From: Lachnospiraceae bacterium
Lineage (GTDB): Bacteria > Bacillota > Clostridia > Lachnospirales > Lachnospiraceae
Reading direction: 5' to 3'
Assembly: GCA_017551165.1 (NCBI GenBank)
Contig: JAFZMO010000053.1
Span: 1 to 41,530 of the forward strand
Length of the DNA: 41,530 bases
Of this stretch, positions 1-40,630 are shown one piece after another. Numbering within the stretch: position 1 is the stretch's first letter; each line of letters starts with the position of its first letter. The notes under the pieces were generated by a model. It searched no databases. It was not told the origin of the DNA and was given only the letters and a program-made list of their open reading frames with translations. A program made the translations under genes and the position numbers.

Positions 1-1509
1 GCATTTCGGTTGTCGGATCTTACCCGGTTTGACGGGATTGTCATCCAGTGTCACGACAACCCGGACGCCGACGCGCTGGCGAGCGGCTACGCGCTTCGGT
101 GGTATCTTGAGAGGAAGGGGATCGCTGCGAGGTTTGTCTACGGCGGAGCGAACGTGATCACGAAGAGCAATCTCGTGCTGATGAACGAGGACCTCGGGAT
201 CAACTGTGAGCATGTCGAAAGCCTGGACGATCCGGAGCTTCTGATCACCGTGGACTGCCAGTACGGTGAGAGCAACGTCACCGCATTTTCCGCGAAAACG
301 GTTGCCGTCATCGACCATCACCAGATCTCCTCTGAGCTCCCCGCGATGAGCGAGGTGAGGAGCAACTACGGCTCGTGCTCGACCGTGATGTTCGAGCTGC
401 TCCGCGCGGAGGGCATCGACATCAACGAGGACAAAAACATCGCGACCGCGCTGTATTACGGGCTGATGACGGACACGGGTGACTTCACGGAGATCTCGCA
501 CCCGAGCGACCGCGACCTTCGGGATCTGGCGGCCTTCAACAAGGCGCTGATCACGCTCTTCCGCAACTCCAACCTCTCGATTGAGGAGCTGCGTATCGCG
601 GGCGACGCGTTGAAAAATACGACCGTGAACGAGGAGCGCTTCTACGGGATCGTCGAGGCGGGTCTGTGCGACTCCAACATCCTCGGGATCATCAGCGACA
701 TGTTTTTGGAGGTCGACGGCGTCCACAGCTGCGTCGTCTACAACATTTTGCCCTCGGGCGTAAAATACTCCGTGCGCAGTTGCGTGAAGGAGGTCAAGGC
801 CAACGAGCTGGCGTCCTTCCTCGCCGAGAACCTCGGCGGTGGCGGCGGACATCTGGTCAAGGCGGGCGGATTTCTGAAGAAGGATCTGATCGTGAAGGCC
901 GGCGTGCGCTACGAGAAGGACGATATCAGCCGGTTTATCGCGGCGAGAATGAATGAGTATTTCGACACCTCGGTGATCCTGTACGCGGGCGAGTACCGCG
1001 CCGATCTTTCCGAGTATTCCCGCTATCGCAAGAAGATGTTCCACGTCGGCTTCGTGCAGGCCGCAGACCTTGCAGCGCCGGGCAGGGAGGTCGCGATCCG
1101 CACGCTGGAGGGCGATATCGACATGACCATCGAGGAGGATACGTACATCATCCTCAATGTCAACGGCGAGATCTACCCGATCCAGAGGGCGAAGTTCGAG
1201 CGGTCCTACCGCGTCGCCGACGAGCCTTACGTCTACCCCGGCGAGTATCCGCCCAACGTCATCGACAACGCGACGGGGGAACGGATCCCGTTGCTGCCGT
1301 TCGCGAAGAGCTGCATCTCGGTGGGTGGCGACGGCATCTATGCGAAGGAGATCACGGGCCGCGTGAAGGTGTTCACCATGTGGGACCGCGACAAATACTA
1401 TCTCGGACGGACGGGCGACTACCTTGCCGTGCGCGTGGACGATCCGTCGGACGTCTACGTCATCGAGGGCGGAATCTTCGCAAAGACCTACGAAAAATGT
1501 GAGGAATAA
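1..1509 (+). CDS. DHH/DHHA1 family phosphoesterase, 5' end outside window
   Basis: The frame is open from the first base. A TTG at 10 could be a start, but the true start probably lies a few codons upstream. The N-terminal DHH domain shows HDNPDADALASG (about residues 15-26), an IDHHQ motif near 100 and MTDTGDF near 155; the DHHA1 part carries GGGGGHLVKAGGF near 280. This is the NrnA/oligoribonuclease-cyclic-dinucleotide phosphodiesterase architecture, Mn-dependent in known members. Unlike the roughly 320-residue NrnA, it continues for about 170 residues in a domain I do not recognise (from YAGEYRADLSEY to the end). The substrate (nanoRNA, pGpG, pAp or cyclic dinucleotide) cannot be read from sequence. 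The TIR gene begins three bases after the stop codon, so the two are almost certainly co-transcribed and probably work together. Confident on the family, not on the substrate. Confidence 0.85.
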   Translation, partial: AFRLSDLTRFDGIVIQCHDNPDADALASGYALRWYLERKGIAARFVYGGANVITKSNLVLMNEDLGINCEHVESLDDPELLITVDCQYGESNVTAFSAKTVAVIDHHQISSELPAMSEVRSNYGSCSTVMFELLRAEGIDINEDKNIATALYYGLMTDTGDFTEISHPSDRDLRDLAAFNKALITLFRNSNLSIEELRIAGDALKNTTVNEERFYGIVEAGLCDSNILGIISDMFLEVDGVHSCVVYNILPSGVKYSVRSCVKEVKANELASFLAENLGGGGGHLVKAGGFLKKDLIVKAGVRYEKDDISRFIAARMNEYFDTSVILYAGEYRADLSEYSRYRKKMFHVGFVQAADLAAPGREVAIRTLEGDIDMTIEEDTYIILNVNGEIYPIQRAKFERSYRVADEPYVYPGEYPPNVIDNATGERIPLLPFAKSCISVGGDGIYAKEITGRVKVFTMWDRDKYYLGRTGDYLAVRVDDPSDVYVIEGGIFAKTYEKCEE

Positions 1510-1512
1510 CCG

Positions 1513-4500
1513 ATGAGATACGATGCGTTCATCAGCTATCGGCACGCGCCGCTCGACATGGAGTTCGCGAAGAAAGTCCACACGGGACTCGAGACGTACC
1601 ATGTGCCTGCGGCGGTACAGAAGAAGACGGGCAAAAAGAAGATACAGCGAGTGTTCCGCGACCAGGAGGAACTGCCGATCGGAAGCGACTTAAACGACAA
1701 CATCGCGTCGGCGCTGCGCGAGTCGGAGTACCTGATCGTGATCTGCTCGCCGGAGACGCCGGGCTCGTACTGGGTCTCCAAGGAGATCGAGACATTTATC
1801 GAAATGCATGACCGTCAGCACGTGCTCGCGATCCTGGTGGACGGCGAGCCGGAGCAGAGCTTTCCGCCCATGCTGCTGGTCGACGAGAGCGGGAATACCG
1901 TGGAGCCACTGGCGGCGGACGTGAGGGGCACAACGCCCGCGGAGCGGAACCGGAAGTTCAAGACGGAGCTTCTCCGCCTTGCCGCGCCGATCCTCGGCTG
2001 CACGTACGATGACCTGCGCCAGCGTCACCGCGAGCGCATTTTGAAACGAAACCTTATGGTCGCCGGCGTTGCCGCCGGCATCATTGCCGTCGCGGGCGCC
2101 GCATTCGGCGTCTACAACGCGCGCGTCGCCGACCGCATGAAGAAGCTGGCCGACGAGAAGGCGGTGCTTGCGGAGGAGAAGTCCGTGCTCGCGGACGACA
2201 AGACCAAGCTGGCCGATGAGAAGACGAAACTGGCGGACGAGATGTCGATCCTCGCGGAGGAGAAGACGCGTCTCGCCGATGAGATCCTCGCCGAATACCG
2301 CGAGAAGCAGGTGAACCAGTCCCGCTTCTACGCCGAGGAAGCGATGCTCCAGCTCGCGGAAGGGTTCCGCGAGGATGCCGTGCTCATCGCCTCTGCGGGA
2401 CTCCCGTCGGAGAAGGATGACCGACCGTTCGTGGCGGAGGCGGAGTATGCGCTGGCCGCTGCGCTCCACGTGTATGACTGCGGGAACAGGCTCGCGTACG
2501 ACCGCGTGCTCAAGCACGAGCTGACCGTGAGTGACATGACGCTTGACAAGAGCTTGCGGTATCTGACCTCGTTTGACGACGGGAACAACGTGTACGTCTG
2601 GAACAGCGACACGGGGGAGCTTCTGTGTAAGATCCCGCCCGCGGTGGAAGGCAACAGGACTGTCCATGTTCTCACTGCGTTTGCGGATGCGAACGGCATC
2701 GTGATCGTGTATGCTGACGGCATGGTCCTGTACGACTACGCGGGAACGGTGAAGAATCGCCTCGATGATGTCGGAACCATCTACGGGTGCGCATTTTACG
2801 ATCAATACGACATGGTGATCTGCTACAGCCTGTCTGAGATCCGTATCATCGCCCTGTCCGACTTCACGGTGAAGACGGTGCTCCGCAACACGGAGGACCG
2901 GAACTTCCAGGGGGAGTACGGCCTCTCGAAGGACGGGCGGTATTTTGCGATGGCCCACAAGCCGGAGGCGGGGAAACCGGCGCTTGTCACGATCTATGAC
3001 CTGAGCGACAATTCCTCCGCTGCGGTGGAGGCCTCGGAGGAGTACATCTTCGCGCTCACGTTGACGGAAGCCGGCAATCTTGCGACCGTCAGCACAAACT
3101 ACGATTTCATATTCGGGAACATAACGGCGCTGACGCTCGATGTGGCCCGCCTCGCAGACGGGGAGCGGCTGTATGACAAGGAGATCCCGCTGAATATACG
3201 GAACGGGAACGCATTCCGCACGCTGATCTCGTCGCACTCGTACCAGGGGAAACAGGATGTCGTGATCGCGATCGACAGCGACGTCTACTCCTTCGACGAG
3301 GTGAGCGGCGATCTGAAAGCGCAGATCGCGATGCCCGGGATGACGGTCACATTGGACCTCGTGAGCAACTCGAGCACCGCGTACATCGGCTGCCGCAACG
3401 GAGAGATCATCCCCGTCAACACCGACACGGGAAGAGTGTATTCCGACAACACGGTGACAACGGTTTCCACGGGCGCGTTCATGGAGGACATGAAGATCTT
3501 AAACGGCGGCATCGTGTTCCGTATCCCGATCTCGAACAACCTTGCGGTGATGCGGTATCATATGGCGTCCGACCTGAAGAAGCTGCCCGACCTGCAGGTC
3601 GTTTCCTGCGGTTACGCGGTTGCACCGGATTCGGACTATTATGTCCTGATCGATGATCGCTATCTCCGAACGTTCTATTTCTACGACCGGAACGGGGATC
3701 TTCTCTACACCGACGGTGACGCAACGGCGCCGATCGGAACAGGATTTTTCGAAAAATACTTTGTCATCGCCAGATTCGGTACCGTGAACCTTATCGATCC
3801 GAAGGCCGGGACCATCCGATCCCTTCACTATGAGGATCTCGGGGCTTCTCCGTCGTACACCGGCGCCTGCGTGTCAGCGGACGGACAGCTGCTGGCCCTG
3901 TACGGCTCGTACGGCGTCGCGGTCATCGACCTTCGGGAGGAGCGATGCATCTACGCGGAGAGCAGCCTCTCCAACGCCGGCGCTGTCGCGTTCTGCGGAG
4001 ACAGCGGAAAGATCCTGGTCTCCGAGTACGGGGAGGCGCCCGTCATCATCGACCTTGCAACAGGCACGATGACGAAACCGGGTGACTCAGCGCTGAGCCG
4101 GTTTGCCGAGGGGAAGAATCTGAGTTATCTCGCCTGCTCCGACGACGGTGCCTACGCGGCGATCTCGTGCCGGGACGGCAACGTGCGCATTCTCGCGCTC
4201 TCCACGGGGGAGACGGTGCTCACGATCCCGCTGTCGGTGCATTCGGTGTGCTTCCTCGGGTTCACGAAGGACGGAAAGCACATCATTTTGGAGGGCGATG
4301 ACTACCAGGCGAAGATCTACAACATTGCCGACGGCACCTGTGTGAACAGTATTGACGTCCCGACGAAGATCGCCTACATGATCGAGGACGGAGAGATCAT
4401 CGCGCTCTGCGACAACTACACGGTGAGCCTGGTCGACGCGAAGAGCTTCGGCCGTCTTGCGTACGTGCCGGACGCGATCACGTATCTTGCAGGGCCGAGA

Positions 4501-4638: not shown

Positions 4639-4653
4639 GATAAGGGGGACACT

Positions 4654-5259
4654 ATGGGAAGTTATTCCGGGATCCATCGTTTCCATGAACGGGGAACGAA
4701 GGCCAATGTAAACAACGTCAGTGCGTTCGGCATGCCGGTGTACTCACTGTACACGTCGAAGAAGGTGTTCACGCTGCATCACCGCATCACGATCACCGAC
4801 GATGACGGTGCCGTGATCTATACGGTGGAGACACATTTTCCGTCTCTTCACGACCGCACGGACATCCGCGATGAGAACGGACGCGTGATCGCGCAGATCA
4901 CCAGAAAGTTTTTTTCGCTCCACAAGCGGCATTTCATCACGATGTTCGATGGTTTCATCTTCGAGATGTCGAACGAGCTGTTCCACATCATCTCGGATGT
5001 CACCAACATCGAGGGACTCGGCTGGCAGCTCCGCGGCAATGTCCTCGGGCTGAACTTCGAACTCTACGATGAGAGGGGGAACATCGCTGCGGTCGTCGGT
5101 CAGAAAATGTTCTCGATCCACGACAAGTACTGCATCGACATCTACCGGCCGGACATGGAGATGGTCATCGTCGCGATCCTGATCACGCTGGAGCACATGA
5201 TGCACGACCGCTCGGGAAGCGGCGGCAGCGGCGGCAGCGGCGGAGGCTCGGGCGGCTGA
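4654..5259 (+). CDS. LURP-one-related (LOR/YxjI-type) protein
   Basis: 201 residues, 15 bases after the TIR gene, with a GGGGG ribosome site. The protein consists of repeated beta-hairpin modules of the kind KVFTLHHRITITDDDG, KFFSLHKRHFITMFDG and KMFSIHDKYCIDIY, the hallmark of the LOR/Tubby-like C-terminal fold (YxjI/DUF567 family). A hydrophobic helix MVIVAILITLEHMM near residues 168-182 fits the central hydrophobic helix of that fold. The last about 16 residues are a Gly/Ser tail with no obvious role. LOR proteins are thought to bind membrane lipid or nucleic acid; no enzyme activity is established. Its place behind a TIR membrane protein suggests a membrane-associated partner in the same system (inference). 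Confidence 0.75.
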   Translation: MGSYSGIHRFHERGTKANVNNVSAFGMPVYSLYTSKKVFTLHHRITITDDDGAVIYTVETHFPSLHDRTDIRDENGRVIAQITRKFFSLHKRHFITMFDGFIFEMSNELFHIISDVTNIEGLGWQLRGNVLGLNFELYDERGNIAAVVGQKMFSIHDKYCIDIYRPDMEMVIVAILITLEHMMHDRSGSGGSGGSGGGSGG

Positions 5260-5271
5260 GACAAAACAAAA

Positions 5272-5313: not shown

Positions 5314-5323
5314 ATATTCACGT

Positions 5324-7900: not shown

Positions 7901-8746
7901 ATGATTTTCGACACGCATGCACACTATGATGACGATTGGTTTGACGAGGACCGGGAAGCGCTGCTTCGCGGTCTTTCTTCACGCGGGATCGGCACCGTGG
8001 TCAATGTCGGAGCCTCCATGCGCGGCTCGCGGGCTTCCGTGGCGCTTGCACGGGAGTGGGAGTTTGTGTATGCGAGCGTCGGGGTGCACCCGGACGATGC
8101 GCCGAAGATGACCGATGCGGACATCGAGGAACTCCGGTCGCTGGCGGCGGATCCGAAGGTCGTCGCGATCGGCGAGATCGGCTTGGACTACGGCCATGAG
8201 GACGAGCTCACCGACGAGGAGCGCGACGCACAGCGCGCGGCACAGGCTTACTGGTTCCGAAGACAGCTGGCGCTGGCAGCGGAGCTCTCGCTCCCGGTGA
8301 TCATCCACTCGCGCGGCGCGGAGGCGGACACGCTCGCGATCATGCGCGAGTACGCGGAGACGTTCGCGGGCGGCAGGAACAATTCGGAAAATGTGACCGG
8401 CCAGGGCGCCGAGAACTGCCCCGGCGGCATCATCCACTGCTTCAGCGGCTCCCCCGAGACGGCGGCAGAGTACCGCAAGCTCGGATTTCACATCGGCGTC
8501 GGCGGTGTGCTGACCTTCAAGAACGCGAGACGCCTGCCCGACGTGGTAGCGGCGGCACCGCTTTCGCAGATCGTGCTTGAGACCGATGCGCCCTACATGG
8601 CGCCAGTGCCGTTCCGCGGCAAGCGCAACGACTCGGGATATCTCCCGTACGTCGTCACGAAGCTCGCGGAGATCAAGGGCATCGGAGAGGACGAGGTCAT
8701 CCGCGCGACGGAGGCCAACGCGAGAGAGCTGTTCGGGATCGGCTGA
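7901..8746 (+). CDS. tatD: TatD family metal-dependent hydrolase
   Basis: 281 residues. Metal ligands of the TatD barrel are visible: FDTHAHYDD (His6, His8), AIGEIGLDY near 92, IIHSRGA near 132, GIIHCFSGS near 175 and LETDAPYMAP near 228. Members are Mg/Mn-dependent deoxyribonucleases or 3'-5' exonucleases, and the function here is inferred from the family. There is a small loop insertion before GGIIHCF (around 155-172), encoded partly by a CGGAAAAT word at 8385. In many Firmicutes the order is tatD-rnmV-rsmA; here rnmV is missing and rsmA follows directly. Confidence 0.9.
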   Translation: MIFDTHAHYDDDWFDEDREALLRGLSSRGIGTVVNVGASMRGSRASVALAREWEFVYASVGVHPDDAPKMTDADIEELRSLAADPKVVAIGEIGLDYGHEDELTDEERDAQRAAQAYWFRRQLALAAELSLPVIIHSRGAEADTLAIMREYAETFAGGRNNSENVTGQGAENCPGGIIHCFSGSPETAAEYRKLGFHIGVGGVLTFKNARRLPDVVAAAPLSQIVLETDAPYMAPVPFRGKRNDSGYLPYVVTKLAEIKGIGEDEVIRATEANARELFGIG

Positions 8747-8776
8747 GAGCAGATCATTTTTCGAAAACTGTGGAAT

Positions 8777-11572: not shown

Positions 11573-11955
11573 GCGTGTTCGTGCATTTTCCGCTTGCAGA
11601 CACGAGGAGAAAGTCGTAAGATACAATCGACGGAATGTTTTATCCGGATTGTATTAAATGCAGTTTCCCTGCGGGTTGCAGTCACCATAGTGATTCCCTG
11701 CGGGTTGAGACGCACGGTCATCGAGCACGTCGCGATGCCCCACGCTTATGTTCTCCCGGGTCTTCGTCAGTGTCGGTTGTCTTGCGGCGCTGGCGCGTAT
11801 CGCCCCCCACGGTACGGAGCCGGGATTGATTTCGAGCGGCGAGGGAACGGCAGTAGCTCTGGCTGCGGCAGCGCACAGGAACGCCTGTGCCCCCGTGATC
11901 GTCCCCGGACCGTTCCGATCTTGGGCAACGCCCATCAATGGGAGGTTTTTTTCGT
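11573..11955 (+). other. 383-base gap with several hairpins and a direct repeat, possible leader RNA
   Basis: No convincing gene. Visible structure: hairpin ATACAATC (11621-11628)/GATTGTAT (11647-11654) with inner CGGA/TCCG pairing; the 14-mer TTCCCTGCGGGTTG twice, at 11665-11678 and 11694-11707; a perfect hairpin GCACAGG-AACG-CCTGTGC at 11873-11890; and two mutually exclusive short stems GGGC/GCCC (11923-11933) and CCCA/TGGG (11931-11942), the latter followed by AGG and seven T. The downstream GGAGG (11941-11945) is embedded in the last stem. This resembles an attenuator or riboswitch leader, but no known class was recognised. Confidence 0.4.
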
Positions 11956-13923
11956 ATGGAAAAAAACAATGAGCGGGCTATGAACCGCACAAAACGAAAC
12001 ATGCGGACCAAGCGAAACCTCAGCAGGATCAAGGACTACGCTCCGCAGGGAGTGGTCGCATTCCTCGTCTTGGCCGCACTGATGCTCTTGCTGTTCTGTC
12101 TGTTGAACCTGTCGATCTTCGGCAACTTCATCAAGAGCGTGTTCCGCGCACTCGGCCCCGCAGTGGCCGGCTTCATCTTCGCATTCATCATGTCGCCGCT
12201 CGTGCGGTTCATCGAGACGAAGCTTGTTGCGTTCGCGATCTCACGCAACCGGGAGAAGGAGAACAACGAAGAATGGATGGCCAAGATCCGTAAGCGCGCA
12301 CGCCGCATCAGTATCCTGCTGACGCTGGTGACGCTGCTGTCGATCATCACGCTTCTTTTAGTCGCCATCATCCCGGAACTCGCCAAGAGCTTGAAGGACC
12401 TGGCACTGAACCTGGCCAAATATCTGGAGCAGCTGCAGGGAACCATCGATTCCTACCTGCTTCGCAACCCTCGTGTGGCGGAGGTGTTTGATCCGGTTGT
12501 CAAGAAGTTCTCCGATTCGGAGAAACTGGCGGACACCATCACCAAGTATTTTAATATCGACATGGCCGGCGACACGGCAAAATTCGTGTTCAAGAGCACG
12601 TGGACCGTCGTCCGTATCCTCTACATCTGGCTGGTCGGCACGATCGTCAGCGTCTATCTGCTGGCGAGCAAGGAATACTACATCGGTCTGTGCAAGAAGC
12701 TCTTCTTTGCGATCCTTCCGAAGCGCACTTCGAAAAATGCGATCCAAACGCTGCACAAGGCCAACATCATCTACTCGGCAGCGATCCTCGGCAAGCTGGT
12801 TGACTCCCTGATCATCGGCATGCTCTGCTTCATCGGCACCCTGATCATGGGAATCTGGTTCCCCGCGATCGGCAGGTACAAGGTGCTTGTGAGTGTGATC
12901 GTCGGCGTGACGAACGTGATCCCGTTCTTCGGGCCGTTCCTCGGCGGAATCCCGTGTTCGCTGCTGATCTTCTCCATCAAGCCTCTCGAAGGTCTGGTGT
13001 TTGCACTGTTCGTCGTCGCACTGCAGCAGTTTGACGGCAACTTCCTCGATCCGCATATCGTCGGCAAGAAGGTCGGCCTTCGTCCTCTGTATGTGCTCTG
13101 CGCATGTATGCTCTGCGGCGGCTTGTTCGGCATCCCCGGCCTGATCGTGGCGACGCCGACCTGTGCGCTTGTGTACTATCTCGTAAAATCCTACCTGGAA
13201 GTCCGTCTGGAGAGCAAGAACCTTCCGACCGAGACGAAGGAATATGTAACGCACCCGAGCGCGGTGATCGCAAACCGTGCCATGAGCGTGGATGTGCTGA
13301 CCGAGCGACTTGTCGCGGAGTCCGATGCGCTTGACGCGGAGCAGGCACAGGAGCTCGCCAAGATGGAGAGCGCTGCGGCGCTCGCAGCGGCGACCGGCAG
13401 CAAGCGGAAGCGCCGCCGTCATCGCTCCGGCACGAGCACGCTCTTCTCGGAGCGTGAGAATGACATGGAAGAAACCGATGAGCTCGATCTGTCGGCATAC
13501 GATGACCTCGAGTCCGGCGTGGCACGTGAGAAGCGCCTGCAGCGCGAGTGGCTGATGTCCAGCGGCGAGGAGGATGTGAACGAGAACGGCATCGCCGATG
13601 AGCTGGAGCGCGCGCATGAGGCGGAGGGCAGAAAGAAGCCGTCGCTCGCCCGCACGCTGATCCGCCGCATGATCGATGAGGCGGAGGAGGACTGGGATGA
13701 GTTGGGCAACCGTCCGCTGCCCGGTTCCAAGCGCCGGAAGCAGGAGGCCTTAAAGACGCAGGAGGAAGAGGACAACACGTCCGATGACGAGTCGGTTGAT
13801 GCCGATGATGAGACGTTGACCGGTGCTGATGAGGAGGCGTTTGCGGACGCTGAGGAGGAAGCCTTCGAGGAGGACGAAACGGACGATCCCGAGGACGACA
13901 ATATGGACGAAAAAACAGAGTGA
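11956..13923 (+). CDS. AI-2E family membrane protein with long acidic cytoplasmic tail
   Basis: 655 residues from ATG 11956, ten bases after GGAGG. Residues 1-430 follow the AI-2E/PF01594 family: N-terminal hydrophobic pair from about 32 and 65, a soluble helical insert around 140-220, and the conserved VTNVIPFFGPFLGGIP motif near 320-335 before GNFLDPHIVGKKVGL near 366-380. Family members have been linked to AI-2 export, Na+/H+ exchange or permease roles; the substrate here is unknown. The tail from about 430 to the end (over 220 residues) is unusual: a basic patch KRKRRRHR, then blocks very rich in Glu/Asp, with no recognisable domain. A structured leader precedes it. Confidence 0.85.
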   Translation: MEKNNERAMNRTKRNMRTKRNLSRIKDYAPQGVVAFLVLAALMLLLFCLLNLSIFGNFIKSVFRALGPAVAGFIFAFIMSPLVRFIETKLVAFAISRNREKENNEEWMAKIRKRARRISILLTLVTLLSIITLLLVAIIPELAKSLKDLALNLAKYLEQLQGTIDSYLLRNPRVAEVFDPVVKKFSDSEKLADTITKYFNIDMAGDTAKFVFKSTWTVVRILYIWLVGTIVSVYLLASKEYYIGLCKKLFFAILPKRTSKNAIQTLHKANIIYSAAILGKLVDSLIIGMLCFIGTLIMGIWFPAIGRYKVLVSVIVGVTNVIPFFGPFLGGIPCSLLIFSIKPLEGLVFALFVVALQQFDGNFLDPHIVGKKVGLRPLYVLCACMLCGGLFGIPGLIVATPTCALVYYLVKSYLEVRLESKNLPTETKEYVTHPSAVIANRAMSVDVLTERLVAESDALDAEQAQELAKMESAAALAAATGSKRKRRRHRSGTSTLFSERENDMEETDELDLSAYDDLESGVAREKRLQREWLMSSGEEDVNENGIADELERAHEAEGRKKPSLARTLIRRMIDEAEEDWDELGNRPLPGSKRRKQEALKTQEEEDNTSDDESVDADDETLTGADEEAFADAEEEAFEEDETDDPEDDNMDEKTE

Positions 13924-13952: not shown

Positions 13953-14017
13953 TTGATTTTCCGATTCAATGAGACTATAATCTATGCATAGTTGTGAAAT
14001 TTCACATAGCAAAGGAG
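13953..14017 (+). promoter_or_regulatory. Promoter, palindromic operator and RBS of the BMP operon
   Basis: TTGATT (13953-13958), 17 bases, TATAAT (13976-13981). The -35 runs into ATTTTCCG. A perfect 14-base palindrome TGTGAAATTTCACA occupies 13993-14006, about +5 to +18, where a bound repressor would block initiation. AAAGGAG at 14011-14017 is the ribosome site. Confidence 0.7.
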
Positions 14018-19256: not shown

Positions 19257-19288
19257 CGAAAAATGATGTGCGGCTGCGTCAGCAACGC

Positions 19289-24034: not shown

Positions 24035-24052
24035 GGAACATTTTCCGAAAGA

Positions 24053-26901: not shown

Positions 26902-26932
26902 TTGACATTTTCCGAAAAAAGTGTAGTCTAAT
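26902..26932 (+). promoter_or_regulatory. Promoter of asnS
   Basis: TTGACA (26902-26907) overlaps ATTTTCCG. The -10 is either TAGTCT (26924-26929, spacer 16) or TCTAAT (26927-26932, spacer 19). The 5' leader is too short for a T-box. Confidence 0.55.
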
Positions 26933-29442: not shown

Positions 29443-29472
29443 TATCATTTTCCGAATAAAACACAGAAAAAT

Positions 29473-29536: not shown

Positions 29537-30160
29537 TCAGGCCTCTGCGGCCTCCGATGCGGAAACTTCGATGACCTTCTTCCCCGGTACGGAAGTCGCA
29601 TCGTCGGCGAACAGCAGCTTGCGCGTTCCGCGGTTGCGGAGCAGTGCAAAGAGCAGGATCCCGCCGAACACACCGCAGGCGATGATCTCTCCGGCAGCTA
29701 CCGTAGCCGTCAGGAACCAGTAAGCGTCGTCGAAACCGTAGGCGAACTTGAGGATCGGAGGGATGATCACAGCGTTGGAGATGATCGGGGGAAGCGAGAA
29801 CATGACCGTCAGCGCGACCACGCGAAGCGCGGGGCGCTCACCGAGCGGTTTTCTCGCAATCTTGCGAACGGCGCGACCGATCAGGAAGGTGCCGACAGCA
29901 CCGATCAGGGTTGCGATCGGACCGAGGGCGATGTCCCAGGGGTTTCCTCCGGCGATGATATTCGTGAGCAGGCAGCCGATGTACAAGCCGGGGATGCTCT
30001 CCGCCATAAACGCGGGAAGGATCGTGAGCGCTTCGGAAAATCGGCACTGGATCACGTTGTCACCGGCGAGACCAACTCGTTCCGAGAGCAGGGAAAGACC
30101 GAAGTACAGAGCGGCGATCAGGGCCGCCTTCGTCAGAAAAAGAGCAGAATAGCGTTTCAT
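29537..30160 (-). CDS. queT: QueT family preQ0/preQ1 transporter (ECF S component)
   Basis: 207 residues. Sequence marks of QueT: CRFSEALTILPAFM near 39-52 and IPGLYIGCLLTNIIAGGNPWD near 56-76, with five or six hydrophobic helices and a short charged tail. QueT-type S components take up queuosine precursors with an ECF energising module encoded elsewhere. A preQ1-I-like riboswitch and GGAGG site directly precede the ATG, which independently supports the call. The promoter is at 30246-30275 on the minus strand. Confidence 0.88.
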   Translation of the reverse strand: MKRYSALFLTKAALIAALYFGLSLLSERVGLAGDNVIQCRFSEALTILPAFMAESIPGLYIGCLLTNIIAGGNPWDIALGPIATLIGAVGTFLIGRAVRKIARKPLGERPALRVVALTVMFSLPPIISNAVIIPPILKFAYGFDDAYWFLTATVAAGEIIACGVFGGILLFALLRNRGTRKLLFADDATSVPGKKVIEVSASEAAEA

Positions 30161-30383: not shown

Positions 30384-31577
30384 ATGAAAGAGAATATGAA
30401 AACGAAGGAGAAGACGGACCGGCCGTTGCAGGATCGCCGATATTCGGCGGTCAATCTGTTGCTGTTTGTGTTCATGCTCATTTTCCTGTTTCTGGCGACA
30501 GTGTCGGATCTGCTGGGGAGTCGAACATGGCCGCATGTGCGAGAGGCGAGGGTTGCCATCACCAATCCGAGCGGGGAAACGTGTCACGTGGCGGTGCTCA
30601 CCTCGGAACAGGAGGGCCTTTGGATGTTCGGCGAGTATGAGGAGGTGGGCAGAAATGATGACCTCTACTGGCAGGCAGTCCGGATGCTCGCGATCGACGG
30701 CGGAATGACGGAGAACGAGGCGGACCGGCTGGTCGAGCAGAAGAAACAGGAGCTGCAGATCAACTCGCAGGATTACCGGTACGAGATGTACCGGGAGCTG
30801 ATGGAGAGATTTTCCGCGTTGATGGCGGAGAGGGCCGGGACATCCATGCTGGGAGCTGTCGTGCACTCGGCGACGGGCACGAAGACCGCAGGGTACCCGG
30901 AGTATGAGGTTTGGAAGAAGATCAGGGAATACACCGATGCCGACGGGTACCGGTTCATTCACCAGGTTACGTGGAAGGCAGGGCCCGGGGAAACGGCCAT
31001 CGAGTTGAAGGATGAAGATCTTCCGAAACACTTCAAGCTCTTCCTGTACTGGCCGGAGAGAGGGACGGTGTTGGTCTCCGAGGTGATGGAACCTGACCAC
31101 TATGTCAATGCGATCGATGTCTCTGTGGGGCTTTCCGGGAGTGAGGGAATCCTGACCGTGACGGACCAAAGCCGGAGCGAGACTGTGCCGTGGTGGATCG
31201 TTGTTGCGGCGGTTGCCTTGTTCGCGGGCTGCGAGATCCTTGTCGCATGGGCGATCGGTGCGCGGGAGAGACGGCAGTTGCTGCTGATCGCATGCGTCAC
31301 CATCGTGCTGCATGCGCTCCTGTTTACGTTTCTTGTGCTCACGCACAACGCGTACCGGATCGACGGGGCACTCCGATGGAGAGTGGTGCCTGTCGTCGCG
31401 TTTAAGGTGATCGCGTTCCCGATCATAGAGGCGTTGATCTACATGGGCTTCCTGCGCGAGAAGGGAAAGCGGCTGGAGCCTCCGATAAAGTATATCGACC
31501 TTGCGGCGCTGATCAGCTGGCTCCCGATGCTCCTGCTGATGCTGGTTGCCGAGGTGATCAGCATTTTCCGTGGATGA
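30384..31577 (+). CDS. Unknown membrane protein with extracytoplasmic domain (paralogue A)
   Basis: 397 residues, ATG 30384 behind GGGGG. One N-terminal membrane helix (about 22-45), an outside domain of about 220 residues (about 46-268), then four helices (about 272-293, 302-326, 335-355, 368-392). No family recognised. It is clearly a paralogue of the protein at 33495-34655: shared landmarks are WPHVREARVAITNPSGE/WPVTREARITITDNTGE, DADGYRFIHQV/DSDGYRFVHQV, LYWPERG/VYWPESG and AGCEILVAWAIGA/VGCEVLFAWLLGA. A solute-binding lipoprotein lies between them. Inverted copies of a small hairpin repeat flank this copy. Possibly a membrane sensor or permease-like partner of the lipoprotein, but nothing in the sequence fixes a function. 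Confidence 0.7.
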   Translation: MKENMKTKEKTDRPLQDRRYSAVNLLLFVFMLIFLFLATVSDLLGSRTWPHVREARVAITNPSGETCHVAVLTSEQEGLWMFGEYEEVGRNDDLYWQAVRMLAIDGGMTENEADRLVEQKKQELQINSQDYRYEMYRELMERFSALMAERAGTSMLGAVVHSATGTKTAGYPEYEVWKKIREYTDADGYRFIHQVTWKAGPGETAIELKDEDLPKHFKLFLYWPERGTVLVSEVMEPDHYVNAIDVSVGLSGSEGILTVTDQSRSETVPWWIVVAAVALFAGCEILVAWAIGARERRQLLLIACVTIVLHALLFTFLVLTHNAYRIDGALRWRVVPVVAFKVIAFPIIEALIYMGFLREKGKRLEPPIKYIDLAALISWLPMLLLMLVAEVISIFRG

Positions 31578-34655: not shown

Positions 34656-34682
34656 CCGCGGACCCTTATGACGGAAAATGAA

Positions 34683-35417: not shown

Positions 35418-37445
35418 TCATTGTAAGGATTCGGGCTCGACACCCTCCCGGAAATCGGGGACGTCCTCCGTGTCGTGCACCGGGCCGTCGGGAACGGTCT
35501 CGGGCTGCGGAACAGGGCTCGAGTCGCTTAAGTGCGTGTCGGCCTCCGGGCGGAAGATACCCTGCGCCTCGATGAAGGCGCGGTACTCGTCGCGGATGTC
35601 GTCGATCGCGGGCAGGAAGCCGTGGACGTTGTAGAGGAGCTTGTCCATCTTGAGGATCTCCTCGGGCGAGAGACCGTCTCCGGCCTCCAGCTGCGTTCCG
35701 TCCTGGAACTTCAGTAATTCGGAAAATGGATTGAACCCGCCGGTGGTGAGCGAGTTGCGAAGGATCTTCAAAAGCAGCTTCGTGCCGGTCGGGATGCGGT
35801 CGGAGTAGATCACGTCGATCGCCTCCGCGGACATGCCCCACCAGTAGTTGAGCGCGCGGTTGCCGGCTTCCTCCTCCTCATCCTTCCAGTTTCCGTTGAG
35901 GATGGAGCGGAGGATGTCCTCGTACATTTTCCCCCAATGCCATACCGGGAGCGCATAGTTCTTTGCGACGTCCTCGCCGTTGCGGCGGAACAGACCGAAC
36001 TCGCGCGACATGCTCGCCGGCGCGTTAAGGTCGCGGCTCGAGATCAGGGTGATGCCCTTCTCGCGGAAGCGCTCCTTCGGCTCGTTGCCCTTGACGGTCG
36101 ACCACTCGAGGTAGACCTCGGCCTTCGGATTGACCATGCGCGCGCCGAGCGCGAACGCGTTGATGCTCGCGGTGACGCCGAAGATCGGGTAGTCCGCGAC
36201 GTAGCCGATGCGGTCGTCGGTGGCGAGAGCGCCGGCGAGGGCACCGATCATGAATTTGGCTTCATACATACGCAGGTAGTAGGAGCGCACGTGGCGCGAC
36301 GAGAGGTTCAGCGAGCAGTTGAGGACCTTCACGTCCGGGTGCTCGACGGCGACCTTCGCACACGCCGGAAAATACTGCGGCGACGTCGTGAAGAGCACGT
36401 TGTAGCCGTCCGCGATCAGCTGCTCCATCGTCTCCACGGCGTTGGCGGTCGTCACACCGAACACAGCGTCGGTGTTAATGCGCTTGCCGAAGATGCCGTC
36501 GACGTACTCGCGGCCCATCTCATGCGCGTAGGTCCAGGCGCTGATCTCCTTCGGCTTCTCGTACACCCAGGCCGCCGCGTAGGTCTTCGGGGACATGAGC
36601 ATCGAGAAGGTGTGCTTCTTCGGCTCGGTGATCGGGTTTAGGGAGATCGAGATCGTGCGGTGATGGCTGTACAGCTCGAACTCGTTCCAGATCTTGCCGA
36701 TGTTGTCGCGGAACTCTGCCGCGAGCGCCTCCTTCGCCTCCTCGTAGCCGAAGATGCTCAGGTACACGAGGAACGCGTCCGACGTCGTGAGCGAGAGCTT
36801 GTTGCCGCCGCGCGCGAGAAATTCCTTGCTGAACGCGATGTAGGCGGAGCGGAAGTCCGCTTTCATCGTCTCGTCCCACGGCTGCTCCGTGTTGTTGTAG
36901 GTCGCTTTCATCAGAAGCGAGTAGCTGCCCTCCTTCGAGAAGGAGAGGTAGTTGATCTGTGTCTTTTCATAGAAGTCCAGGAATTCGTAGTACATCTGGA
37001 CTTCCTTGGCGTCGGTCCGCTTCGGGATGATGCGCGTCACGTAACCCTCGATGGTCACGGCGCCCATGCACAGCGAGACGCTCACGCGCTTGTTGCCCTC
37101 CTGGACGTAGTACTTGTCCAGAAATTCGTAAGCGATGATGGGGTCGCGCATGCCCTCGGCCTCCATCGACTCATAGAGGTTGGCCCACTTCATGGCGAAC
37201 TCGGAGTCCTTGTCCAAAAGCGGCATGAAGTTGCGCGCGAACGCGCCGCTTCGGCCCTCGTTGTACGTGCCGGCGATCTTCTCGATCGGGATGTCCGTCA
37301 GACCGAGCTTGACGCGGCTGTCGACCTCGAAGCGCTCGAGCATGTCGTCCAGGCACACCAGGTACGGGTGGATGCCCTTGGACACGCAGTAGTCGTACTC
37401 CTTCTCACCGGCCTTCTTGGCCTTGATGTATTCTTCAATGTTCAT
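35418..37445 (-). CDS. ParB/sulfiredoxin-like domain fused to cytoplasmic BMP-type binding domain
   Basis: 675 residues; the ATG overlaps the birA stop (4 bases). No signal peptide, lipobox or membrane helix, so cytoplasmic. Residues about 50-135 look like a ParB/Srx-fold nucleotide-binding domain: IPIEKIAGTYNEGRS near 52-66 and YYVQEGNKRVSVSLCMGA near 112-129, where GNKR sits at the ParB G-x-x-R phosphate site. A helical middle follows (140-275). From about 280 to 560 comes a Bmp/PnrA-like domain (FGVTTANAVETMEQLIADGYNV, GALAGALATDDRIGYV, SINAFALGARMVNPKA), the family of the secreted lipoprotein at 14026. The C-terminus is acidic and Pro-rich. A nucleoside-binding intracellular sensor is plausible, but the role is unknown. 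Confidence 0.75.
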   Translation of the reverse strand: MNIEEYIKAKKAGEKEYDYCVSKGIHPYLVCLDDMLERFEVDSRVKLGLTDIPIEKIAGTYNEGRSGAFARNFMPLLDKDSEFAMKWANLYESMEAEGMRDPIIAYEFLDKYYVQEGNKRVSVSLCMGAVTIEGYVTRIIPKRTDAKEVQMYYEFLDFYEKTQINYLSFSKEGSYSLLMKATYNNTEQPWDETMKADFRSAYIAFSKEFLARGGNKLSLTTSDAFLVYLSIFGYEEAKEALAAEFRDNIGKIWNEFELYSHHRTISISLNPITEPKKHTFSMLMSPKTYAAAWVYEKPKEISAWTYAHEMGREYVDGIFGKRINTDAVFGVTTANAVETMEQLIADGYNVLFTTSPQYFPACAKVAVEHPDVKVLNCSLNLSSRHVRSYYLRMYEAKFMIGALAGALATDDRIGYVADYPIFGVTASINAFALGARMVNPKAEVYLEWSTVKGNEPKERFREKGITLISSRDLNAPASMSREFGLFRRNGEDVAKNYALPVWHWGKMYEDILRSILNGNWKDEEEEAGNRALNYWWGMSAEAIDVIYSDRIPTGTKLLLKILRNSLTTGGFNPFSELLKFQDGTQLEAGDGLSPEEILKMDKLLYNVHGFLPAIDDIRDEYRAFIEAQGIFRPEADTHLSDSSPVPQPETVPDGPVHDTEDVPDFREGVEPESLQ

Positions 37446-38317
37446 GGTTCGTTCCTTTCTGTCTCACGCTGCACCCCATGGTCCGGAGCATCGAGCCGCA
37501 CGGTGACGTCGCCGCAGCAGATCGCCTCCCGTGTTCCGTCCGGATAAGTGACCAGAAGACGTCCCTCGGCGTCGATCGCATCGGCGCGTGCGGGAACCGC
37601 GGTCTCCGGCCGCGTGATGTCGGCGAGGATGCGGATGTCCCTGCCGAACAGGTAGTCCGACGCACGGTAGCGCGCCATGTACGACAGCGCGTTTTCGTCG
37701 GAAAATGAGCCCGTCCTCGCGGCAGTGACGGTCTCGTCATAGTATCGCAAGAGCCGGTTGGCAGCGGCGGCGAGCAGACGCTCGGCGAGCTCCTTGGGCG
37801 CCCCGCCGTGCGGGTAGAGCGCGCCGGCAACGCCTGCGGCCGAACCTGTGAAACCGCCCTTAGGCGCCTCCAGATTGATCCCGATGCCGAGCGCGGTGTA
37901 CGCCAGGCGGTCGGAGCCCGGCGCAAGCGCGGACTCCGCAAGGATGCCGCAGATCTTGCGATCGTTATAATACAGGTCGTTGACCCATTTGATGTCCGGG
38001 ACGAGCCCGGTTACCTCCTCGACGGCCTCCGCCACGGCAACGGCCGCAAAGACCGTGATGCGCGTGCTCTGCGCAAGCGACATGTCCGGTCGCAGCAGAA
38101 GCGTAAAATACAGCCCCGTCCCCCGCGGGGATTCGAACGACCGCCCGAGTCTGCCCCGTCCCTGTGTCTGTTCCGAGGCAACCATCAGTGTGCCCTCGGG
38201 CGCCCCCTGCGCGCCGAGCTCCTTGACCAGAAGGTTGGTGGACGTCACGGAATCCCGCGCGATCAGAGAGATCCGCCCGGGCGCGTCAAGCAGGTTGTAA
38301 AACTTGTTCCGATCCAT
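37442..38317 (-). CDS. birA: Biotin-[acetyl-CoA-carboxylase] ligase
   Basis: 291 residues from 38317; AAGGAGG lies 11 bases upstream on the minus strand, so the longer frame to 38359 is not used. Motifs: TSTNLLVKEL near 25-34, EQTQGRGRLGRSF near 49-61 (biotinyl-AMP loop), IKWVNDLYYNDRKICGIL near 108-125 and LGIGINLE near 142. No N-terminal winged helix, so a monofunctional enzyme and not a biotin-operon repressor. It attaches biotin to carboxylase carrier domains. The gene leads a minus-strand unit with the ParB-BMP gene; an operator-like palindrome overlaps its ribosome site. Confidence 0.9.
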   Translation of the reverse strand: MDRNKFYNLLDAPGRISLIARDSVTSTNLLVKELGAQGAPEGTLMVASEQTQGRGRLGRSFESPRGTGLYFTLLLRPDMSLAQSTRITVFAAVAVAEAVEEVTGLVPDIKWVNDLYYNDRKICGILAESALAPGSDRLAYTALGIGINLEAPKGGFTGSAAGVAGALYPHGGAPKELAERLLAAAANRLLRYYDETVTAARTGSFSDENALSYMARYRASDYLFGRDIRILADITRPETAVPARADAIDAEGRLLVTYPDGTREAICCGDVTVRLDAPDHGVQRETERNEP

Positions 38318-38333: not shown

Positions 38334-38352
38334 TTCGGAAAATGAGTCCGAA
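38334..38352. promoter_or_regulatory. Operator-like palindrome in the birA leader
   Basis: TTCGGAAAATGAGTCCGAA: TTCGGA/TCCGAA arms with a 7-base spacer, touching the birA AAGGAGG. It shares the 15-base core CGGAAAATGAGTCCG with the site at 38443-38459. Confidence 0.55.
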
Positions 38353-38436: not shown

Positions 38437-38465
38437 TTGACGGCGGAAAATGAGTCCGCTACAAT
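38437..38465 (+). promoter_or_regulatory. GH5 gene promoter with operator filling the spacer
   Basis: TTGACG (38437-38442), a spacer of exactly 17 bases that is the imperfect palindrome GCGGAAAATGAGTCCGC (38443-38459), then TACAAT (38460-38465). A repressor on this site would directly block polymerase. Confidence 0.7.
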
Positions 38466-38502: not shown

Positions 38503-40578
38503 ATGATTCGAGAATTCAATTACACGCGCAGAAGAAGCGTGTGGGCGGCGATCATCGTGTGCATCGCGATGTTCGCAGCGCTCGGCTCCGCAGCTGCGGG
38601 AAGCGGTGCGGGGACGGTAACGGCGTCGAGAGCGGCTGCCACGGAGGAGCTGACCGGCAAGACGGCGGCGGAGATCGTCTCCATGATGGGGATCGGCTGG
38701 AACATTGGCAACACGTTTGATGCGACCGGCGGCGTCGGTGCATCGCACGAGACCAACTGGGGCAACCCGGCGGTCACGAAGGAGCTGATCCACGCGGTGA
38801 AGGAGGCGGGCTTCAGCGTTATCCGCATCCCGATCACCTGGGAGCAGGAGATCAAGAAACAGGACAATTACAAGATCTACGAGTCGTTCCTTGCCCGTGT
38901 CAAGGAAGTCGTTGACTGGTGCTACGAGGAGGACCTCTTCGTCATCATCAACGTGCACCACGAGACCTGGGTCAATCGGAAGGACCTGGATAAGAGCTAC
39001 CGCGAGGTGGGAACAGAGCTGGCGGCGGTCTGGGCGCAGATCGCAGAGTATTTTGCGGACTATGACCAGCACCTTATCTTCGAGGGCATGAACGAGCCCC
39101 GCATGGCGGGTTCTGCGATCGAGTGGACCGGCAAGAAGGAGGCGTATCAGGCGATCAACTACCTGCTGCAGGTGTTTGCGCAGACCATCCGAGAGAACGG
39201 CAAGGGCCACAACGGGGAGCGCTGTCTGATGATCCCCGGCTACGCGGCTTCGAGCTCGACCAACATCATGGATGCGGTGTCCCTTCCCTCGTACGAGGGC
39301 AAGGTGGTGAACAACCTGATCGCGTCCGTTCACATGTACGCGCCGTACAACTTCTGCCTGCAGGATACGCAGAAGACGTTCGGCGACTCGGATGCGGCCT
39401 CGGTGGAGGCGATCTTCAAGGCGATCCGCAGCGTATTTTCCGACAACGGGATCCCTGTCATCATCGGTGAGACGAGCGCGACCGAGAAGGGCAACACGGA
39501 GGAGCGTGTCAAATGGGCGGAGTGCATGGGGCGCCTGTCTCAGGCGTACAACATGCCGATCGTCATCTGGGACAACGGTAGCGACTCGAAGGTCGGCGGT
39601 GAGAGCCACGCGTACATCAACCGCAGGACCTGCGAGTGGAACTATCCGACGGTTGTGAAGGGCCTGTTCGACGGTGCGAAGAGCGTTGAGCGCGGAAGCG
39701 CCCTGAAGCCGGCTGACGGCGGAGAGGGCGGCAGCGGCGAGATCTCCGGAACCTCGATCTGGAGCAACGCGGACGGTCTCAAGGCGTCCAAGGAGTGGGA
39801 TTCCACCTACATCTCGATGGGCGCGAAGGCGACCTGGTTCGGCGAGGGCCGTTCCGTCGCCATCGTATACACCGGCACGGGTGAGCCGAAGCTGATCCTC
39901 GACAGCGAGACGAAGCAGAAGTGGTGGATCCCCGTGGATCCCACGAGACGCGAGACGAGCGGTGACAAGAAGGTCGTCTGGTACGACTACGAGACGCTCA
40001 TGTCGACGCTCGCAGCCAACGGGATCACCGACCCGACAGACCTGCGCAACTTCATGATCGTTGCGGTTCCCGCAGACGGCAAGGAGCTCGACGTCACGAC
40101 ATACAATATCATTGTGACCGGTCAGGCCAAGGTGACATACATGGTCAACGGTCAGCGCTACTCGAGCGGAAGCGAGCTTCCGGAGGAGCCGAAGCTCAAG
40201 GACTGGGTGTTCGTGGGCTGGTACCTCTCGAAGACGTACGACGGGCAGTTCACGAAGGACACGGTGCTGAGCGGCGATGCGATCGTGTATGCGATGCTCC
40301 GCCTGAAGACGGACGAGGAGATCGCGGCGGAGATCACGCCGACGCCCGAGCCGACGGCAACGCCGGTACCGACGGCGACCGCGGAGCCTACCGCGGCTCC
40401 GACCGAGAGCACGGAACCCACGGCAACGCCGGTTCCCGCAGAGACCGATGACAACTCGCCCAAGGACAGTCATCCGTCCTCGAAGGGCTGGGTGATCATA
40501 CTGATCGTCGGTCTTGCGGCGATGGTGGTGATCTGCGCGGTGATCATGCGAGCAGCCAACAAGCCCAAGGAGAAGTGA
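38503..40578 (+). CDS. Membrane-anchored GH5 endo-beta-glucanase
   Basis: 691 residues from ATG 38503, six bases after GGAGG. N-terminal signal/anchor near 12-32. The GH5 catalytic domain spans about 45-400: MGIGWNIGNTFDA near 64-76, HHETW near 149, acid/base IFEGMNEPRM near 190 (Glu of NEP) and nucleophile VIIGETSAT near 322. The sequence suits subfamily 4-type endoglucanase/xyloglucanase enzymes. Then a carbohydrate-binding-like module (about 420-545), an InlB-type repeat (MVNGQRYSSGS to YDGQFTKD, about 547-600), a TPTPEPTATPVPT linker and a C-terminal membrane helix with a basic tail. The enzyme is thus held at the cell surface and cuts beta-glucans outside. The promoter carries an operator at 38443-38459. 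Confidence 0.92.
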   Translation: MIREFNYTRRRSVWAAIIVCIAMFAALGSAAAGSGAGTVTASRAAATEELTGKTAAEIVSMMGIGWNIGNTFDATGGVGASHETNWGNPAVTKELIHAVKEAGFSVIRIPITWEQEIKKQDNYKIYESFLARVKEVVDWCYEEDLFVIINVHHETWVNRKDLDKSYREVGTELAAVWAQIAEYFADYDQHLIFEGMNEPRMAGSAIEWTGKKEAYQAINYLLQVFAQTIRENGKGHNGERCLMIPGYAASSSTNIMDAVSLPSYEGKVVNNLIASVHMYAPYNFCLQDTQKTFGDSDAASVEAIFKAIRSVFSDNGIPVIIGETSATEKGNTEERVKWAECMGRLSQAYNMPIVIWDNGSDSKVGGESHAYINRRTCEWNYPTVVKGLFDGAKSVERGSALKPADGGEGGSGEISGTSIWSNADGLKASKEWDSTYISMGAKATWFGEGRSVAIVYTGTGEPKLILDSETKQKWWIPVDPTRRETSGDKKVVWYDYETLMSTLAANGITDPTDLRNFMIVAVPADGKELDVTTYNIIVTGQAKVTYMVNGQRYSSGSELPEEPKLKDWVFVGWYLSKTYDGQFTKDTVLSGDAIVYAMLRLKTDEEIAAEITPTPEPTATPVPTATAEPTAAPTESTEPTATPVPAETDDNSPKDSHPSSKGWVIILIVGLAAMVVICAVIMRAANKPKEK

Positions 40579-40630
40579 TCGCGGAGCGGGTTCATTTTCC
40601 GAAACATGAGAACAACAAAAGGAACGATCC

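Follow-up and report, generated by a model that had tools for sequence, protein, structure and literature searches.

The window, that is the whole stretch of 41,530 nucleotides analysed here, carries a short word, CGGAAAAT, that is dispersed over both strands, within genes as well as between them. All 23 sites that the sequence-only reading had listed by eye are exact matches: 12 of 12 starts on the plus strand and 11 of 11 sites written as ATTTTCCG. The nine sites of the sister form CGAAAAAT were recovered at the same starts as before, five on the plus and four on the minus strand (Table 1). The G+C content, which had been put at roughly 57%, was measured as 58.2%. The earlier expectation of about one copy was slightly low, as an order-3 Markov model predicts 2.8, but the excess of the 23 observed copies is real. 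An order-6 model gives about 10 per strand and is uninformative because it includes the word's own 7-mers. Counting both strands, GGAAAATG and CGGAAAAT are the two commonest 8-mers of the window with 23 copies each, and the called coding sequences (CDS) contain 14 copies of CGGAAAAT where 1.5 were expected (100 codon-preserving shuffles, maximum 5). The Rfam scan of the window gave no match, and PADLOC returned two weak matches for four window proteins.

Table 1. Sites of the word, its sister form and their dyads in the window
Feature	Position	Strand	Match
CGGAAAAT site, then G	285..292	-	exact match
CGAAAAAT variant site	1491..1498	+	exact match
Dyad ATTTTTCGAAAAAT, two variant sites, common central CG	3744..3757		sequence match
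CGGAAAAT site, then G	4835..4842	-	exact match
CGGAAAAT site, full TTCGGAAAATG	8385..8392	+	exact match
CGAAAAAT variant site	8756..8763	-	exact match
CGGAAAAT site, then G, intergenic	11585..11592	-	exact match
CGAAAAAT variant site	12731..12738	+	exact match
CGGAAAAT site, intergenic	13956..13963	-	exact match
CGGAAAAT site	15607..15614	+	exact match
CGGAAAAT site, full TTCGGAAAATG	17011..17018	+	exact match
Dyad ATTTTTCGAAAAAT, two variant sites, common central CG	19251..19264		sequence match
CGAAAAAT variant site	20811..20818	-	exact match
CGGAAAAT site	22796..22803	+	exact match
CGGAAAAT site	23352..23359	+	exact match
CGGAAAAT site, full TTCGGAAAATG, intergenic	24040..24047	-	exact match
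CGAAAAAT variant site	25752..25759	+	exact match
CGGAAAAT site, full TTCGGAAAATG, intergenic	26907..26914	-	exact match
CGGAAAAT site, full TTCGGAAAATG, between convergent genes	29447..29454	-	exact match
CGGAAAAT site	30034..30041	+	exact match
CGGAAAAT site	30809..30816	-	exact match
CGGAAAAT site, then G	31563..31570	-	exact match
CGGAAAAT site, then G, between convergent genes	34672..34679	+	exact match
CGGAAAAT site, full TTCGGAAAATG	35720..35727	+	exact match
CGGAAAAT site	36366..36373	+	exact match
CGGAAAAT site, then G	37699..37706	+	exact match
CGGAAAAT site, full TTCGGAAAATG, divergent intergenic	38336..38343	+	exact match
CGGAAAAT site, then G, divergent intergenic	38444..38451	+	exact match
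CGGAAAAT site	39435..39442	-	exact match
CGGAAAAT site, full TTCGGAAAATG, intergenic	40594..40601	-	exact match

The dispersed word is a real, over-represented feature of the genome. Across the 2.54 Mb genome of the host, a Lachnospiraceae species (G000), we counted 808 copies of CGGAAAATG compared to only 4 of the reversed control, and the balanced orientation described for the window holds for the whole genome (382 and 426 copies by strand). For the codon-null tests about 370 kb of the genome was sampled. In this sample CGGAAAATG ranked first among all 8-mers when the null kept codons and their junctions, with 74 copies in CDS against 5.3 for the synonymous shuffle or 5.7 for the junction-preserving one. 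The coding copies split into 38 sense and 36 antisense and use all codon phases. That selection acts on the DNA and not on the protein is thus well supported, by a 14-fold excess over the synonymous-codon null and by equal sense and antisense counts. The variant CGAAAAAT is 8-fold enriched in CDS (34 sense, 37 antisense). Loss of the excess under codon-aware nulls and strict strand bias, the two outcomes named beforehand as contrary to the claim, were not seen for CGGAAAAT(G) or CGAAAAAT in these ~370 kb. That the coding copies use otherwise rare codons was largely right, with GAA accounting for 17% of Glu, AAT for 25% of Asn and TTT for 33% of Phe; TCC, however, makes up 26% of Ser and is not rare. 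Two variants absent from the earlier list, CGTAAAAT and CGCAAAAT, are also in excess, but their copies within genes are largely antisense (44 of 47 and 49 of 61, respectively), which makes them weaker evidence. Their excess may in part arise at the protein level, and the form AGGAAAATG of another genome, G089, superficially resembles a Shine-Dalgarno sequence plus ATG. Both points would suit an artefact, be it of codon usage or composition, of terminators or translation starts, or of repeats, to which we nevertheless assign almost no credence: the codon-preserving nulls rule out codon usage and composition for CGGAAAAT(G) in G000, the equality of antisense and sense a translation-start signal, and the control count and the use of all codon phases point the same way.

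We found 74 of 118 word sites of the 370-kb sample inside genes. The intergenic density is up to ~3x the coding density, and these intergenic densities are upper bounds because some AT-rich gene clusters escaped our home-made gene caller. As most sites lie in CDS on both strands, a site for terminators only or regulators only is ruled out. Spacing of CGGAAAAT is near-Poisson, with a mean of 5.69 and a variance of 6.87 over 32 bins of 10 kb. Replication direction was approximated by the majority gene strand and by the G-rich strand, relative to which CGGAAAAT divides 98:98 and 106:109, respectively. Chi and KOPS are likewise short genome words, though strand-biased ones, and Chi-type signals are oriented with replication. 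The absence of any such bias rules out Chi and KOPS here and makes it quite improbable that AddAB or another repair enzyme reads the word as a Chi-like hot-spot of recombination or as a signal for biased gene conversion, even if the high genome-wide copy number and the lack of a protein-level reason would fit such a signal and the spread would be consistent with conversion.

The extended form of the word is the T-rich TTCGGAAAATG, and the flank information comes mainly from the upstream T-rich stretch. Outside a span from roughly -6 to +8 relative to the core there is little information and no longer repeat unit in common, which rules out a longer mobile repeat and again argues against a repeat artefact. 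In the substitution tables G2 and the AAT at positions 6-8 form the shared, mostly strict part of the words. The word contains no stop codon in any of the six frames. Dyads of the form ATTTTNCGNAAAAT, in which two sites share the CG, occur 15 times in about 370 kb against 0.04 expected and take up 30 of the 446 CGNAAAAT half-sites; the word itself is not its own reverse complement. Among close word pairs 17 of 18 are inverted, an arrangement that in uptake sequences often acts as a terminator, and the gene caller places 11 of the 18 within CDS. A methyltransferase or defence system might mark self at the word, the excess resulting from protection or from mutation bias at the methylated site. 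We think this very unlikely, as restriction targets are usually avoided and not enriched. The cyanobacterial HIP1 is likewise a dispersed, over-represented 8-mer found genome-wide and linked to methyltransferases, but it is a palindrome (PMC4390886, accessible text), which the present word is not, its dyads notwithstanding.

Copy numbers vary within the host genus, of which we counted 22 genomes. Eleven are word-rich (181-408 copies per Mb), eight are intermediate (96-162 per Mb) and three are near background (G212, G217 and G203). For seven of the intermediate genomes we analysed 196 kb of sequence from the pilus and comEA loci: the coding excess of CGGAAAAT is absent (14 vs 14.25), and GGAAAATG is about twofold enriched (24 vs 11.75). 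Between species 76 of 380 word sites are kept (20%) compared to 8% for control 8-mers, a 2.5-fold difference, and turnover is evident. These figures also bear on the possibility that a nucleoid-associated or cell-cycle protein binds at the word, whose hundreds of copies would then help to fold or tether the chromosome and which would have drifted together with the protein in relatives. Strand symmetry, near-Poisson spacing, the higher intergenic density and the shared-CG dyads would all fit such a site. However, most word sites lie in genes and only the above 20% are common between species. The site-specific organisers parS, Noc, SlmA and MatP moreover have tens of palindromic sites, against about 800 non-palindromic ones here. 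On balance we regard a nucleoid-protein site as unlikely.

Related words on the frame GGNNAATG were found in three other genera, represented by G073, G089 and G154. Their mutual likeness is partly selected because the genera were picked for raised counts, G073 and G089 for CGGAAAATG and G154 for GGGCAATG. For G073 we observed 81 copies of GGGCAATG (6.8 expected), 89 of GGTCAATG (10.1), 60 of GGCCAATG (4.6) and 54 of GGACAATG (7.3), and for G089 86 copies of GGAAAATG (18.9) and 51 of GGGAAATG (11.1). In both genomes the excess survives the codon null and is seen in either orientation. G154 has 39 copies of GGGCAATG in 120 kb (2.0 expected) and 562 genome-wide against 22 for the control. The G073 pattern recurs in a syntenic relative, UBA1201. 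In G111 GGGCAATG is raised (532 vs 71 for the control in 4.9 Mb), yet no comparable word was found in 80 kb, and there was no GGNNAATG word in 40 kb from each of five pilus-bearing genera, all with 35-42% G+C. As a measure of kinship, the AsnRS of G073 is 80% identical; no full match to AsnRS came from G089 or G154. Two of the five pilus-bearing genera showed other frequent words in their 40 kb, CCACCAGC in G160 (12 vs 0.6) and GCATTTGCA in G171 (11 vs 1.3), where local repeats are possible.

The host genome encodes an uptake machine, namely ComEC, ComEA and a full-length type IV pilus PilB; its pilus contig stops after pilB. The pilB-pilT-pilC-pilin operon is present in all 16 congeners analysed. 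The three word-poor congeners retain ComEA and the pilus operon; G212 and G217 have an intact ComEC, whereas that of G203 is read in two overlapping frames. For the word-bearing G154, a genome 87% complete, no pilus-type PilB was found. PilB in three of the four word-bearing genera is no association because 93 of 200 family genomes give a strong PilB match (E below 1e-95). The machinery does not predict the word, as it is also present in word-poor congeners, and pili occur in genera with no GGNNAATG word in the 40 kb sampled from each. The candidate minor pilin did not separate word-rich from word-poor species, and Pfam detected only the generic N-methyl pilin motif on the pilins. In G208 and G210 the minor pilin escaped the gene caller, and our regular expression for ComEA matched only 4 of 20 loci. 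Scarcity in recently acquired DNA is a mark of uptake sequences; one AT-rich polysaccharide cluster is not depleted of the word, with 3 copies in 8.5 kb, which is near average, and none of nine proteins scanned from this cluster and the longest word-free run was a mobile-element protein.

Likeness to a DNA uptake sequence, proposed from the window's site density, has gained strength from the words in three further genera, the ComEA, ComEC and pilus genes and the density differences within the genus. According to the accessible parts of PMC3630211 and PMC12616744, the DNA uptake sequences (DUS) of Neisseriaceae are short words that number hundreds to thousands per genome and lie in genes as well as between them; they come in dialects with a conserved inner core, form inverted and dyad pairs and are tied to pilus-linked uptake. 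Dyads like those found here are described for some Neisseriaceae (PMC3630211). The present word shares several of these features: 808 copies of CGGAAAATG here and up to 1060 in the congener G210, both strands and both compartments beyond what codons explain (CGGAAAAT(G)), and dialects with a common inner core in the host genus, G073, G089 and G154, genera chosen for raised counts. In contrast, its sequence is unrelated, its host belongs to a Gram-positive family and it is stop-free, whereas all DUS dialects but one have UGA in one frame (PMC3630211, accessible part). The uptake signal sequences (USS) of Pasteurellaceae are similar in having a 9-nt core, a genome-wide distribution and inverted pairs, and a FimT/PpdA-type minor pilin is their proposed receptor (PMC12616744, accessible part), but their core differs and their downstream AT-rich blocks are not seen for the present word.

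We therefore read the word as a putative DNA uptake sequence, a self-mark for transformation through the type IV pilus and ComEA-ComEC, with a probability of slightly below 60%. It would act as a strand-indifferent self-mark dispersed over the genome and preferred by a surface DNA receptor of the pilus/ComEA-ComEC system, perhaps the pilus minor pilin or ComEA. Directed by the word, same-species fragments would be preferentially taken up and recombined, and this would spread and restore the word through the genome, so that uptake bias may maintain it. The wider proposal is evenly poised: a third, independently evolved and first Gram-positive uptake sequence system in Lachnospiraceae, comprising four dialects or more (CGGAAAATG, GGNCAATG, GGNAAATG and GGGCAATG) and a co-evolving pilus/ComEA receptor, by which gut commensals not known to transform would be sexually isolated by DNA dialect.

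The statement that none is established in Clostridia agrees with the literature searched, which left most subscription journals outside and yielded no uptake sequence for Clostridia; within the same bounds, the putative uptake sequence is best read as the first from a Gram-positive lineage. Two Gram-negative families are described as having uptake sequences (PMC5031613), and a paper on the pilus of Clostridioides difficile states that conditions for natural competence of this species are not reported (PMC9556784), both according to the accessible text of these sources. If the uptake reading is true, natural transformation would be common enough in gut Lachnospiraceae commensals to shape whole genomes, and the word would offer a sequence tag for DNA delivery into these bacteria. 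It would also provide a third, independent case for testing why uptake sequences evolve, with related species that possess the word, lack it or carry a changed form of it while the machinery is kept.

Direct matching on the window sequence confirmed every site coordinate of the sequence-only reading. The core word CGGAAAAT has 12 plus-strand and 11 minus-strand copies, where 2.8 are expected from an order-3 Markov model fitted to the window, and the variant CGAAAAAT has 5 and 4, respectively. In the called genes of the window we counted 14 CGGAAAAT compared to 1.5 under a codon- and junction-preserving shuffle (maximum of 5 in 100 shuffles). For the AsnRS encoded in the window, the nearest named relatives come from Lachnospiraceae MAGs at no more than 84%, with records very close to the source genome G000 possibly excluded. 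The window also encodes a 1041-aa protein (1513-4638) whose N-terminal part weakly matches a family of TIR-domain anti-phage reverse transcriptases (23 bits against a cut-off of 600, E 3e-5); its PADLOC match is also weak.

Dyads of the variant word and their positions
Feature	Position	Sequence
dyad ATTTTTCGAAAAAT made of two CGAAAAAT	3744-3757	window
dyad ATTTTTCGAAAAAT made of two CGAAAAAT	19251-19264	window

The G000 assembly (2.54 Mb, 160 contigs, 91% complete) contains the window as contig C26. Across this assembly the degenerate form CGGAAAATG was found 382 and 426 times on the two strands, and the pattern read backwards 2 and 2 times. A sample of 21 sequences (373 kb: the window plus 20 stretches, of which one consists entirely of N) holds 118 CGGAAAATG sites compared to 7.9 under an order-3 model, which places GGAAAATG and CGGAAAAT at the top of all 8-mers. 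The sites are divided into 74 coding, 43 intergenic and one at an edge, and every codon phase is used. The proposed excess of the word was upheld under a codon-aware null, as the 74 coding sites (38 sense, 36 antisense) compare to 5.3 under synonymous-codon shuffles. With a junction-preserving null all 20 of the highest 8-mers are overlaps or variants of the motif, and the best unrelated 8-mer, CCGCTGCC, reaches a z of 8.9 versus 35.8 for CGGAAAAT. The balanced orientation described from the window also extends to the sample: CGGAAAAT splits 98:98 by majority gene strand over 17 stretches and 106:109 by G-rich strand over 19, with no bias in either case. Spacing was near random (32 bins of 10 kb, mean 5.69, variance 6.87). 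One stretch, L004, carries at 1130-9596 an exopolysaccharide cluster (EpsG, Polysacc_synt, glycosyltransferase, DegT aminotransferase) with three words inside; at 41% G+C within a ~56% G+C sample, this AT-rich cluster was possibly acquired.

Most of the information at the G000 sites lies within about -6 to +8 around GGAAAAT, with a T-rich stretch upstream, C at -1 and G favoured 3' of the T. In the substitution table of CGGAAAATG, A5, A6, A7 and T8 are strict and G2 is almost strict (A at position 2 reaches 2.7-fold expectation). Position 1 tolerates T (10-fold) and to a lesser degree A or G, and constraint is low at position 3 (15-fold for G, 9-fold for T, 6.5-fold for A and 3.6-fold for C). 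Substitutions at positions 6 and 8 go down to 0.3-0.5 of expectation; such one-mismatch near-misses are scarcer in the sample than expected (e.g. CGGAAGATG, 6 versus 15.1), as if converted to the word. In genes the A form is balanced (34 sense, 37 antisense) and the T and C forms are skewed (3:44 and 12:49), so the R of the sequence-only reading is the safe description of the variable position, with N a possibility. Neither the word nor its complement contains a stop codon in any frame. Overlapping dyads ATTTTNCGNAAAAT occur 15 times in the sample compared to 0.04 expected. Adjacent NGGAAAAT pairs at most 30 nt apart number 18 compared to 11.6 by chance; 17 of these are inverted and 11 lie in called CDS.

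Across 22 genomes of the genus g1, G000 included, word counts range from 63 to 1060 and controls from 1 to 34. By density 11 genomes are word-rich (181-408 per Mb), 8 intermediate (96-162) and 3 word-poor (28-46: G203, G217, G212). The word-poor three have a distinct upstream neighbour of comEA in common, which suggests that they form one clade. In coding sequence the nine word-rich genomes sampled (221 kb) gave 37 GGAAAATG versus 8.5 and 41 CGGAAAAT versus 12.3, and the word-poor three (pooled stretches, 370 kb) 29 versus 20 and 47 versus 33.8. For seven intermediate genomes (196 kb, like the rich sample from pilus and comEA loci only) we observed 24 versus 11.8 and 14 versus 14.3, and on this sample the group is therefore weakly enriched at best. 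Overlapping words, among them CCCGCTGAGG, TGAGGCAATG and CAATGGATGG, are each repeated 8-14 times within 40-120 kb of G217 (L134, L136), pointing to a longer dispersed repeat; the repeated pieces TCCTATGAAA and ATCGCACTGC in G212 (L127-L132) likewise point to a dispersed repeat. In the family sample of 200 genomes, two from outside g1 approach it for CGGAAAATG, G073 (401) and G089 (337); none of the remaining 196 outside g1 exceeds about 71 per Mb. No other genome in a class sample of 291 exceeded about 56 per Mb, compared to 318 in G000.

G073 and G089, chosen for their raised CGGAAAATG counts, carry words that survive the codon null and are enriched in both orientations. The top k-mer family of G073 is GGNCAATG; the 292 kb sampled from this genome hold 81 GGGCAATG (6.8 expected), 89 GGTCAATG (10.1), 60 GGCCAATG (4.6), 54 GGACAATG (7.3) and 85 GGAAAATG (19.1). 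For G089 (165 kb) the counts were 86 GGAAAATG (18.9), 51 GGGAAATG (11.1) and 27 GGTAAATG (7.8). The G073 word is largely strict at positions 2-3 (GG) and 6-8 (AAT), free at 1 and 4, and has C with some A at 5; G-N3-AAT is the part common to the dialect words. In the 200 family genomes GGGCAATG is frequent in G073 (636, control 28), G154 (562, 22) and G111 (532, 71). Fetched stretches bear this out for G154 (39 versus 2.0 in 120 kb) and did not confirm an excess in G111. In G154 (L183-L188), CAATGCCG/CGGCATTG are strongly over-represented too (36 versus 4.3), perhaps as a second or overlapping dialect. Lachnospiraceae UBA1201 (L032), a named relative of which some 7 kb align with G073 at 82-88%, carries these words too, with 7 GGGCAATG versus 0.3 and 6 GGTCAATG versus 0.5 in 21 kb. 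Of 80 named loci, 65 span at least 10 kb, and L032 is the sole strong case among these. No comparable word was seen in stretches of G185, G178, G212 and G217 or in five pilus-bearing genera (40 kb each).

ComEA was found in all 22 g1 genomes (21 above cut-off) and above cut-off in 11 of 11 others tried; ComEC matched in 12 of 12 genomes searched and exceeded the cut-off in nine, including G000. At the 20 loci fetched (mostly L203-L219) the usual order is comEA, response regulator, histidine kinase, small putative lipoprotein and comEC, the three middle roles being assigned by the look of the sequence. The two-component pair is missing between comEA and comEC in G204, G209 and G218 (L220-L222), and the loci of G202 and G216 run off their contigs. 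Of the word-poor genomes, G212 and G217 have an intact ComEC; in G203 it is split into two overlapping frames (L215, 5264-7512), which may reflect either a genuine disruption or a misassembly.

A search of 11 genomes gave full-length PilB in G000 (C153, a contig ending inside the next ATPase gene), G189, G212, G073 and G089, a partial PilB in G207 and none in G215, G154, G178, G111 and G185; 93 of 200 family genomes have a strong match. All 16 congener operons analysed, word-poor group included, contain pilB, pilT, pilC and pilins (G213, a 3-kb contig, was left out), where names other than PilB and PilC are presumed from gene position. G202 has two unlike type IV pilus operons in one assembly (L238, L239). 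In 13 of the 16 operons (11 by gene caller, two by frame listing) two larger pilin-like proteins flank a small minor pilin. The pI of this small pilin ranges from 6.7 to 9.9; it is at most 7.7 in G201 and G208, both word-rich, and 8.4-9.0 in word-poor genomes, and therefore charge does not single the pilin out. By analogy with FimT and PpdA/ComN, as treated in PMC12616744, this pilin is a candidate receptor.

Conservation of the word between related genomes was followed along comEA-comEC in ten word-rich genomes with a mean identity of 64%; there CGGAAAAT was kept in place in 76 of 380 ordered comparisons (20%) compared to 8% of 108,786 for control 8-mers, a description and not a test as ordered pairs are non-independent. 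PMC5031613 names Pasteurellaceae and Neisseriaceae as the families with sequence-specific uptake (further background: PMC1852404, PMC3630211, PMC6370729, PMC9556784). In the literature searched, which includes few subscription journals, we recognised no report that describes a word of this type for Lachnospiraceae or for Clostridia at large.

Uptake machinery alone does not predict the presence of the word. A switchable receptor specificity fits this mismatch, yet is not supported by it. The word could also be a site for a nucleoid or other DNA-binding protein, the main rival, which we consider unlikely. Like the uptake sequences of Neisseriaceae (DUS) and Pasteurellaceae (USS), the word is present in hundreds of copies, blind to strand and gene and codon-neutral, comes in dialects with a constant core, is paired as inverted repeats, and has sites that turn over yet stay above background. 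By this analogy uptake bias is the most likely cause of the pattern (probability roughly 0.58) and would maintain the word.
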